Positions 27,186 to 30,448 of a DNA stretch of 64,000 nt are shown one piece after another. The position numbers and the translations under genes were made by a program. Below the pieces are notes generated by a model, which did not search any database, was not told where the DNA came from, and was given only the letters and a program-made list of their open reading frames with translations. Source of the DNA: an uncultured Isosphaeraceae bacterium (GTDB lineage: Bacteria; Planctomycetota; Planctomycetia; Isosphaerales; Isosphaeraceae); NCBI GenBank assembly GCA_945957605.1, contig CAMFLR010000001.1:992001-1056000 (forward strand), in the 5' to 3' direction. Position 1 is the first letter of the stretch. Every line of letters starts with the position of its first letter.

Positions 27186-28700
27186 TTACTTGCCCAGGCT
27201 GATGACCTCGACAAGCTTTGCCCGAGTCGGCGTTTGCCAGAGATGGAACGGCATGCTCGTGCTGACAATCGTTGGCCGCCCTTTGAGAGCGGAGGCGGGA
27301 ACAACCGGCCCGAGTGCGGCGAACCGCTCGACGTCGCGCGTGTTGAGGACGGGAGCGGCTGACTTGAGCACGGCAACCGCCGCAGTTACGAACGCCGCCG
27401 CGACTGATGAACCCGAAACTGTTTCGCCGTCGCTAAAGATCGCGCGCGAATCATTCACAATTGCTTCAGGTTTGACCCGTTTTACCCCGAGACGGCCGAT
27501 GGACGACGCAGGATCGGAATCGCCGACGGTGATCACGCCCGGGTTGTCGGCCGGGGGATAAAGCTCGCCATTGAGGGATGCGTCGAGAAAGACAAACGCC
27601 TCGCGTTCTGCGTTCGTGCCGGCGAGTTTGTAATACTCGCGGTCAGGATTGACGAGAATTCGCACATCATCATTTTTTGAGAACAAGCCACGTTTCACTT
27701 TGACGCGAATCTTGTAGCCGTAATCAGGGTCGGAGGGAACGTCGAGGCTGGCGGGCAAGTTCTGCAGGACGATCCGCTCGCGAGGGTTAAGCGTTTCCTC
27801 AGGTCGGGGCGGAGTCGACAACGACGTCACCTGCACCTTTTCACCCGACGCAATCCGCCGGCCAGCGCCGTCTTCGACGTAAATGTCGAGGTCGCGATCC
27901 GTGCCAGCGTCCTCGTCGTCGCGGTAGTCGTTCCAGGTGAGCGTGATGTTGACGTTGTTACCAGCGGCGCGGTTTCTAAAGCGGAGCGCTGCAATATCGC
28001 CGGTGTTGCGAAGCTTGAGAAAGCCGTCGTTAAGTACCTGGATCGGACCGTGGTAAACGCGCCGGCCGTAGTTTCCGGCAGCGTTGATCCAGATGATTTT
28101 CGCCGCGAGTGCCTCGTCCACAACGTGGTTGATCGGCCCTGCGCCGTCTCCCGATCCGCCGCCTTCGAATGAGTTTGCAAACAGGACGATATCGACGCGT
28201 TGCTCGATCGCAAACCGAACCGCGCGACGGAGCATGGTCGGGCCGTTCGCATTGAGCAGGTAGAGATTGGGACCATCGGAACGAAATCCGGTGACCGCCC
28301 AGATTGCTCGCGCCATGATTCGGCCGTGGCGATTCTTGGGCTCGAATGGCTTACGAAACTCTGGATCGCCGAGGTCGAACTTGCGGACGAAGTCAGGGTC
28401 GTAGTGTTCGACGATTTCCGTGGATGCGGGGAGATCGCCAGGCGGAGAAGTCGAGGCGTCGAAGCCGTAATCGAGCACGGCGATCTTCACGGCGGCGAGT
28501 CGCGGGGCGCTTTCATAAGTTGGCGTGATCCCTAGCGCCTGGCGGACCGCCGTGGCGTTCGTCATTTTGACGGGATCGACCAATGCACGCGGCCCAGAGG
28601 TTTGCGCGTTGGAGTTCTGAGCCGTACTCAGAATCACACCGACACAAACAACCAGGCCGTAAGCGTTTTCAATCCAACGGACGCGTTGAGTTCGGCTCAC
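27186..28700 (-). CDS. Exported subtilase-like (S8) serine protease
   Basis: The GTG start overlaps the preceding gene's stop as GTGA. The 504-residue protein has a hydrophobic signal segment (about 13-26). The S8 triad is visible: Asp77 in AVLDYGFD, His125 in RHGRIMA, and Ser432 in SGSSVAAAF, with oxyanion Asn210 in INAAGNYG. Between Asn210 and Ser432 lies a roughly 150-residue beta-rich insert (about 235-380) resembling a bacterial pre-peptidase domain, including DLDIYVEDGAG. The catalytic motif reads GSS instead of the usual GTS. Being coupled to the Gly-rich protein gene, it may process or cross-handle that product; this is inference. Confidence 0.8.
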   Translation of the reverse strand: MSRTQRVRWIENAYGLVVCVGVILSTAQNSNAQTSGPRALVDPVKMTNATAVRQALGITPTYESAPRLAAVKIAVLDYGFDASTSPPGDLPASTEIVEHYDPDFVRKFDLGDPEFRKPFEPKNRHGRIMARAIWAVTGFRSDGPNLYLLNANGPTMLRRAVRFAIEQRVDIVLFANSFEGGGSGDGAGPINHVVDEALAAKIIWINAAGNYGRRVYHGPIQVLNDGFLKLRNTGDIAALRFRNRAAGNNVNITLTWNDYRDDEDAGTDRDLDIYVEDGAGRRIASGEKVQVTSLSTPPRPEETLNPRERIVLQNLPASLDVPSDPDYGYKIRVKVKRGLFSKNDDVRILVNPDREYYKLAGTNAEREAFVFLDASLNGELYPPADNPGVITVGDSDPASSIGRLGVKRVKPEAIVNDSRAIFSDGETVSGSSVAAAFVTAAVAVLKSAAPVLNTRDVERFAALGPVVPASALKGRPTIVSTSMPFHLWQTPTRAKLVEVISLGK

Positions 28701-29383
28701 CAGTAGTAGCGCCGACCGAAGCAGCCAAACGGTCGAGCATAGGCCACCGTGACCGCCGGGTAACCAACTCCACCATAATAGCCGCCGTAGCCGCCACCAT
28801 ATCCACCGTAGCCGTAGCCTCCATACCCACCATAGCCACCGTACCCGCCATAGCCGATGCTCGAGTAGCCGTAGGAAGGATAGCCGCCGTAGCCGTATCC
28901 ATAACCGTAATAAGGATATCCGTAGCCATAGCCGAGGCCGTATCCCAACCCGTAGCCGAGGCCCAGGCCAAAGCCATATCCACCCCAACCGCCGCCCCAT
29001 CCTCCCCAACCGCGATTCCAACCACCACCCCAGCCACCCCAGCCGCGATTCCAACCGCCGCCCCATCCGCCAATGTGACCACCACCCCAACCACCGCCGA
29101 AGCCGCCACCGTGGAAGCCTCCGCCGAAACCGCCGCCATGGAAGCCGCCACCGTGAAATCCGCCTCCGTGGGCCGATTGAACAGGGCTTTCCGCATCAAG
29201 TTCTGAGGGGGCTTGATTTGCTAATGACTTCGCGTCAGTTGTGATCGCGAAGGGGATTTTCGGGGGGTCGAGAACTGAGTGCGAGGCGGATGACTTCGAG
29301 CCAAACTCGTTATCCAGCTCTCCCGCATAGGCGGGCCCGGCGACGAGCGCCAGAACTGCCAGCCAGCCGATGGAGCGGATCAT
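28697..29383 (-). CDS. Secreted Gly/Trp/Tyr-rich repeat protein
   Basis: The 228-residue protein has a signal peptide (MIRSIGWLAVLALVAGPAYA), an ordinary acidic stretch (21-70), then about 140 residues of low-complexity repeats. These run from GGGFHG units (73-97), through GWNRGWGGWGG units repeated twice (110-131), to GYG/GYGG units (135-207), and end with a short CFGRRYYW tail. Such sequences form flexible or adhesive structural proteins in other organisms. AAAGGAG lies seven bases before ATG 29383. Its stop overlaps the subtilase GTG start. The antisense strand is also open because of the repeat, but I regard that as an artefact. Confidence 0.8.
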   Translation of the reverse strand: MIRSIGWLAVLALVAGPAYAGELDNEFGSKSSASHSVLDPPKIPFAITTDAKSLANQAPSELDAESPVQSAHGGGFHGGGFHGGGFGGGFHGGGFGGGWGGGHIGGWGGGWNRGWGGWGGGWNRGWGGWGGGWGGYGFGLGLGYGLGYGLGYGYGYPYYGYGYGYGGYPSYGYSSIGYGGYGGYGGYGGYGYGGYGGGYGGYYGGVGYPAVTVAYARPFGCFGRRYYW

Positions 29384-29443
29384 GGGGAAACTCCTTTGAG
29401 GTCCAATCTCGGGCGTCGATGCTTGCTCAATCCATTTTACGTG

Positions 29444-29515: not shown

Positions 29516-30448
29516 TCAAAACGACGATGCGTCGATCACTTCGCCGCCCGATCGTGTCGACAGAAAGCTGAAGATGCGCGGGCTGATCGACTCCTTGATG
29601 AACCGCACCGAGCCATCGCAGAACAGGAAGTTGCAACCGCCTGCGTGCAGGCTCCAGAAGTCGTCGGCCCCTGCCCCCTTGTAGTTGGGGACATCAACCC
29701 AGCGCTGATTCGGCGATGGGCCGGTATGGCCCAGAACAAGCACATTGGCGGTTTCGCAGTCTTGAATCGTCCAGGTCGGCTTCGTGCAAACGCGCGAAGC
29801 CGGCACCACGCCCACCCAGGTCGCATCGGCGACGTTTCGCGAACGCTCGCCGACCATCAGCGTCGTACTCGAACCGTCGGTCACATCGCGCAGGCCGATT
29901 CGGCTGTTGCGATAGAAAATGCCATTATTCGACGACGGAAATTCTTCAGGCTCGAGCTGGCCGGCTGAACCAAGATATTGACCGGGCGAAAGATCGGAAA
30001 TGAGCACTGTTCCACTGGTATTCGAGAGGCTTACGGGCCCTGTTCCGACCGAGCTGGGGCAAAGGTAGACGTTCAACGTGGTGGTGCGTGCGGTTCGTGA
30101 GGCGGGATCGGTGATTTGCAGGCTGAAATTCACCGAGTTGAAGACGCTGACCTGTTCGATCTGGTTGAGCAGCATCGTCCCCCAGCCCCAGCCTGGGCCG
30201 GTTTCGGGGCTGTTATCGACCGGTGCCACGGTACCAGTGATATAGCCGGGCGGGAAAGTGTCAAGCGACTGGTGATAGTTGTGCATTCCCAGGCCGAGTT
30301 GCTTCAAATTGTTCGTGCACGAGGCGCGTCGAGCGGCCTCGCGCGCAGCCTGAACGGCGGGCAGCAACAGGGCAATCAAAATCGCGATGATCGCGATCAC
30401 CACGAGCAATTCAATCAGCGTAAATCCGCGCGTACGAGTGCGAGACAT
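29516..30448 (-). CDS. DUF1559 pilin-like protein, canonical
   Basis: The 310-residue protein is a textbook DUF1559 member: [20 protein letters not shown] prepilin signal at residues 8-27, then [27 protein letters not shown], and the C-terminal H-x9-DG motif [16 protein letters not shown]. The mature form should carry an N-methyl-Phe helix and be assembled by a type II/IV-like machinery. GGAG lies about nine bases before ATG 30448. It is followed on the same strand by the Gly-rich and subtilase genes after a 132-base gap holding an inverted repeat. Confidence 0.93.

Follow-up and report, generated by a model that had tools for sequence, protein, structure and literature searches.

A secreted protein with a Gly/Trp/Tyr-rich tail and the subtilase encoded next to it form a conserved two-part module that occurs in three phyla (Planctomycetota, Verrucomicrobiota, and Bdellovibrionota) and is apparently undescribed. 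We regard the partnership of the two proteins as practically certain, and the best explanation of the whole is probably a dedicated extracytoplasmic processing protease and its partner.

The gene pair and the partner protein

The window analyzed is a stretch of 64,000 nucleotides from an uncultured Isosphaeraceae bacterium, whose genome assembly comprises 8.8 Mb in 33 contigs. Both genes lie on the minus strand. The gene of the partner, here called the ELD-box protein (28697..29383; ATG at 29383 and TGA at 28697-28699), is preceded by a Shine-Dalgarno sequence (AAGGAG, 29391..29396) 7 nt upstream of its start codon, and its orthologues adjoin the subtilase gene in other genomes. The product of 228 amino acids starts with a predicted signal peptide (residues 1 to 20, AYA|GELD, 29324..29383), recognized in the sequence and in alignments A1 and A4, with the cleavage site placed by inspection. 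The mature protein would begin with box 1 (GELDNE, 29306..29323, within AYA|GELDNEFG), in which E22 and D24 are invariant in alignments A3 and A4. A linker leads to box 2, SELDAESPVQSAH (29168..29206), which is internal and is followed immediately by a tail of 156 residues (28700..29167) with GGGFHG, GWNRGWGGWGG, and GYGG repeats, an aromatic last residue, and no hydrophobic helix. The signal peptide and the Gly-rich repeats had been pointed out in the preliminary description, which put the latter at 140 residues; both are present, the repeats spanning about 156. Directly upstream of the pair is a prepilin-like gene (29516-30448, minus strand), with a product whose N-terminal start we take to be typical of planctomycete DUF1559 proteins.

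The partner had zero matches in Pfam or NCBIfam, none of the NCBIfam precursor models recognized it, and 16 of its relatives gave only weak and inconsistent matches in the same libraries (best E value, 0.0045). On sequence grounds, it represents a new family of secreted low-complexity proteins with a common architecture: a signal peptide and box 1 (“ELDxE”), then a linker, box 2 ([ST]ELDxES[PS]TQAW in condensed form), and a tail rich in Gly, Tyr, Trp, His, and Asn. The residues G, Y, W, F, H, and R account for 46 to 84% of the tails of the relatives, and the composition ranges from Gly-rich to Tyr/Asn-rich to Gln/Pro-rich.

The subtilase gene (27186..28700, with GTG at 28700 and its stop at 27186) encodes 504 amino acids, including a signal peptide. 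As previously noted, its start codon overlaps the stop codon of the partner gene as GTGA (28697..28700). The overlap is forced, since a terminal TGG (Trp) codon, as in the partner, always yields GTGA together with a TGA stop, and it is clearly repeated in only one relative (L013), the gaps of the other planctomycete relatives being 26 to 141 nt. Since the GTG in the window has no Shine-Dalgarno sequence of its own, translational coupling is locally plausible, yet it is no family trait. Thus, the earlier statement that the two proteins are made together may apply to the window but does not carry over to the relatives, and coupling as a defining feature is ruled out by the usual gaps and by the forced spelling. 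Conservation had been looked for in the overlap and the repeats; these turned out to be the variable part, while the two acidic ELD boxes are the conserved one.

Co-occurrence in Planctomycetota

Among 99 genomes searched, comprising the window’s own and its relatives, 12 (the window’s own included) carried the subtilase, the other 11 copies having 46 to 62% identity. The nearest relatives come from an Isosphaeraceae MAG, Singulisphaera acidiphila, and Singulisphaera sp. GP187, which places the window in Isosphaeraceae (Planctomycetota). Wherever sequence upstream of the subtilase gene was available at these loci, it contained a gene for a secreted Gly-rich protein. These genes have two boxes in common, one (ELDxE) following the signal peptide and the other (SELDxE) preceding the tail. 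At one locus (L014), the assembly is broken inside the repeats, so that the partner frame is open to the contig end and the subtilase appears 245 nt into another contig.

At the family level, both genes were found in the identical 10 of 45 genomes, with one weak additional match (E value, 0.006). Across the class, in which genomes are not independent samples, the subtilase clade (profile E value of ≤1e-30) and the partner N-terminus (profile E value of ≤2e-18) occurred in the identical 22 of 398 genomes, and the other 376 had neither. The next-best matches of the partner profile in other genomes of the class were noise-like (E value of 1.7e-4 or worse). Nearly all planctomycetes have one partner per subtilase, a count that is a lower bound, part of the first-look candidates having been scored. 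One genome (G025) has two partners for its single subtilase of this kind; the second ELD-box Gly-rich protein (L032:1120-1782, minus strand) is encoded away from the pair. In one member of the Gemmataceae (L065), partner and subtilase are on separate contigs with unrelated neighbors, and both are still in the genome. The preliminary description had held that the pairing would be accidental if homologues of the subtilase were usually unlinked to such genes. Instead, we found linkage in Isosphaeraceae, Gemmataceae, a third planctomycete family (f8), Verrucomicrobiota, and Bdellovibrionota, along with co-occurrence in 22 of 22 genomes.

Distribution in Verrucomicrobiota and Bdellovibrionota

A wider scan covering genomes of 84,980 species recovered relatives of the subtilase beyond the family in Gemmataceae, Verrucomicrobiota, and Bdellovibrionota, most of them with a secreted protein bearing both boxes directly upstream. 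In a tree of 52 subtilases, the sequences that have a partner formed one clade (42 rows, 100/100 support); the four genomes with outgroup subtilases that were searched (Bipolaricaulota, Latescibacteria, and others) lacked any partner. From 42 partners of the three phyla, gathered by hand and leaving out the more divergent boxes of L089 and L090, we derived the box 2 consensus [S/D/T]-E-L-D-x-[E/T/D]-[S/T]-[P/S]-T-[Q/E]-[A/S]-[W/H/Y/F], in which E and D are invariant. Among the individual partners, that of L078 has TSELDNEASTQAWW and Gly/Trp/Tyr repeats, those of L081 and L083 have DEMDQ..STPQW and Tyr/Arg/Pro-rich tails, those of L080, L082, and L090 have Tyr-rich tails, and that of L089 has a Gln/Pro-rich tail. 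The partners from Bdellovibrionota and Verrucomicrobiota have an additional middle segment that is absent from the planctomycete partners and is predicted to form a small beta-beta-alpha-beta domain (pLDDT of 80 to 90), for which no fold match was found.

In five loci of one Bdellovibrionales group (L071, L072, L073, L075, and L076), the partner gene is ca. 1 kb away and on the opposite strand. Between the two is a small lipoprotein gene (MMKQIVQWLVVGLILSCGG...) that is always directly upstream of the subtilase. The Oligoflexales-type branch has exactly one clade subtilase per genome, and six of the seven genomes examined encode two to four scattered box 2 partner proteins per subtilase, the weakest of these matches being uncertain (G764; E values of 1e-4 to 0.003). 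No partner was found in G762 (L088) or in two other genomes in which the locus is cut by a contig end. Five Oligoflexales-type subtilases (L085, L086, L087, L091, and L092) directly follow a small FmdB-like zinc-ribbon gene (MPIYEYLCExC...), with no ELD partner there.

The two proteins also share their export route. Of 23 pairs inspected, 18 have plain signal peptides on both proteins and 5 have lipoprotein signals on both, two calls being made by eye (LAAAC of the L089 protease, missed by the pattern, as lipoprotein and LIAC of L082 as plain). The lipobox pairs belong to the Oligoflexales-type branch, and plain signal peptides are found on both proteins elsewhere. An all-against-all comparison of 33 neighborhoods revealed no gene family beyond the pair that is common across phyla. 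A conserved larger operon is therefore ruled out, the intervening lipoprotein gene being confined to the one Bdellovibrionales group.

Active site and fold of the subtilase

The product matches the Peptidase_S8 profile (PF00082) with 35.1 bits against a cutoff of 21.8 (E value, 1.2e-8), and the assignment to S8 agrees with its orthologues and with the Asp/His/Ser triad and oxyanion Asn. His125 (28326..28328) and the oxyanion-hole Asn210 (28071..28073) are invariant in 44 of 44 rows of the alignment, Ser432 in GSS(x)AAA (27405..27407) is present wherever a row covers that column (L090 ends before it), and Asp77 (28470..28472) is kept in nearly all relatives. Judging from these residues, the active site is intact. 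The Asp is replaced by Glu in L081 (5581-8112) and L083 (5857-8277) and by Gly in L090 (5902-7008), all three of which still have an ELD partner gene directly upstream; some members may therefore do without proteolysis.

Only about 45 residues separate the signal peptide site from Asp77, which leaves no room for an I9-type propeptide or prodomain. Between Asn210 and Ser432, 222 residues apart, the AlphaFold model (12-sequence alignment; mean pLDDT of 75 and pTM of 0.77) places a beta-strand-rich insertion (27552..28061, limits approximate). The best PDB fold matches of the model were CspB, CspC, and CspA, a resemblance rather than membership given whole-chain TM-scores of 0.39 to 0.46.

The subtilase of the window is fast evolving, with an end branch of 0.64 versus 0.18 in its genus-mate, and has lost conserved residues beside the catalytic Ser (GSSVAAAFVT versus GSSNAAAYVAG). 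A Peptidase_S8 search of the window’s genome missed it, although hmmscan scores it above the cutoff; genome counts of Peptidase_S8 are therefore lower bounds. As a single ELD partner was found in the whole genome, none is left for its other S8 genes.

Proposed function and alternative explanations

We propose that the two genes encode a dedicated secreted protease-substrate module. Both proteins would leave the cytoplasm via the Sec route, with box 1 placed at the N-terminus of the mature partner and box 2 (SELDxES[PS]TQAW-like) immediately ahead of the tail. The propeptide-less subtilase, with its predicted beta-barrel insertion, would recognize the ELD motif and cleave near box 2, which would free or mature the tail outside the cytoplasm, and the released tail may assemble into surface or extracellular material. 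That the partner is the substrate and box 2 the recognition and probable cut site is suggested by their joint presence and export, by the conserved motif preceding a variable tail, and by the several partners per protease; the function of the tail we infer from its composition, which would suit a self-associating surface or extracellular material. Direct cleavage of the partner by the subtilase is the likelier outcome, with some reserve because box 1 repeats the motif and because the catalytic Asp is gone from a small number of members. Indeed, the likeness of box 1 to box 2 means that ELD may be a binding element and not a cutting site. The matched substrate-protease pair proposed earlier holds as regards the pairing; its key feature is not the repeats, and its cleavage step is less secure. 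The fibre or adhesive layer suggested along with it is neither favored nor excluded by the gene neighborhood.

The partner might instead regulate the protease, its ELD boxes and middle domain binding, inhibiting, or chaperoning a subtilase that has no room for a propeptide and whose true substrate lies elsewhere. The well-predicted middle domain would fit such a role, and a precedent is PopC-PopD of Myxococcus xanthus, in which a subtilisin-like protease is held by a dedicated partner (PMC6434023). However, PopC lacks a signal peptide and its secretion is inhibited by PopD, whereas here both proteins carry signal peptides and the partner has a repeat tail. The middle domain is missing in planctomycetes, no I9 or inhibitor family was detected, and several partners per protease with long, freely varying aromatic tails suit substrates better than inhibitors, so that we consider regulation unlikely. 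A trans-acting propeptide was rejected, the middle domain of Bdellovibrionota and Verrucomicrobiota having no fold match and no planctomycete counterpart. It is more doubtful still that the two proteins are parts of one surface structure, with the subtilase acting as a pseudoprotease-like binder or scaffold (as CspC and CspA) that holds the aromatic-tailed partner at the envelope. The three members without the catalytic Asp, a fold most like that of CspB and of the pseudoproteases CspA and CspC, and the agreement of export type in every inspected pair are in line with this, but conservation of His, Asn, and Ser is otherwise strict across the three phyla, which would not be expected of a scaffold.

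Further from the proposed processing, the tail could be a bacteriocin-like or RiPP precursor from which the subtilase removes a leader ending at box 2, as might be suggested by the conserved, leader-like N-terminus and by a variable core in which repeats such as WNR and GYGG occur. Unlike in RiPP systems such as Gly-rich radical-SAM peptides, the pair has no modifying enzyme or transporter as a conserved neighbor across phyla, the Sec or lipoprotein signal of the partner differs from typical RiPP leaders, and the tails are long and repetitive; a bioactive peptide is thus quite improbable. A GrrA-like Gly-rich radical-SAM peptide in particular was ruled out, as neither a family match nor a conserved maturase in the vicinity turned up. 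Secreted proteins rich in Gly are nothing unusual among bacteria, and gene order within a family could be plain inheritance, but adjacency in the window by accident or slow gene-order decay is scarcely credible for a pair that is common to three phyla, co-occurs without exception in 398 genomes, and is still complete after unlinking; accidental adjacency is refuted by the co-occurrence.

Comparison with known systems

The module resembles GlyGly-CTERM/rhombosortase, PEP-CTERM/exosortase, LPXTG/sortase, and MYXO-CTERM/myxosortase in that a short tag on exported proteins goes with one dedicated enzyme. Tag/enzyme systems such as rhombosortase and exosortase were paired by co-occurrence, and the genes are adjacent where a genome has a single target (PMC3237569). 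As in those systems, tag and enzyme are present or absent together (22/22 versus 0/376 in the class and 6 of 7 Oligoflexales-type genomes), and one enzyme may have many targets (2 to 4 partners per subtilase in six Oligoflexales-type genomes). In contrast, the place of the sortase or intramembrane protease is taken here by a subtilase that lacks membrane helices, and the tag does not consist of a C-terminal motif, transmembrane helix, and basic end triad but lies mid-protein, a box like it being found where the mature protein begins.

With CspB, CspA, and CspC of Clostridium spores, the subtilase shares the S8 fold, an apparent insertion of a beta-barrel in the catalytic domain, and the altered catalytic residues of some members. 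The jelly-roll insertion of Csp proteins has been described as unique to that family, and they retain a prodomain locked on the active site (PMC6636752); here the prodomain is absent, identity is very low (12 to 16%), and hosts and partner differ. Compared with typical Peptidase_S8 members (PF00082), catalytic motifs and fold are alike, whereas GSSxAAA replaces GTSxAxP around the Ser, a beta-strand domain is inserted, the propeptide is lacking, and there is an ELD partner.

In the collection of papers searched, queries on the motif, on planctomycete Gly-rich/subtilase pairs, and on Gly-rich precursor systems returned nothing relevant, and neither these papers nor the family libraries describe the partner or the pair. 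A tag with a dedicated protease is a known kind of system, while a subtilase class with an ELD tag appears to be new. We see an even chance that Planctomycetota, Verrucomicrobiota, and Bdellovibrionota possess here a tag-and-protease system not described before. In it, a subtilase with an inserted beta-barrel and no propeptide, either soluble or anchored by a lipid, would read an internal ELDxES[PS]TQAW and release aromatic/Gly-rich tails that assemble outside the cytoplasm, sometimes from several targets.

Implications

A whole clade of uncharacterized secreted subtilases from three phyla has now been assigned a dedicated partner and a candidate recognition motif, and a new family of exported low-complexity proteins, absent from current libraries, has been named. 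If true, the proposed processing would set a soluble protease beside the enzymes of the sortase-like tag systems, and it would be easily accessible to experiment in strains available in culture, among them Singulisphaera acidiphila, Limnoglobus roseus, and Zavarzinella formosa.
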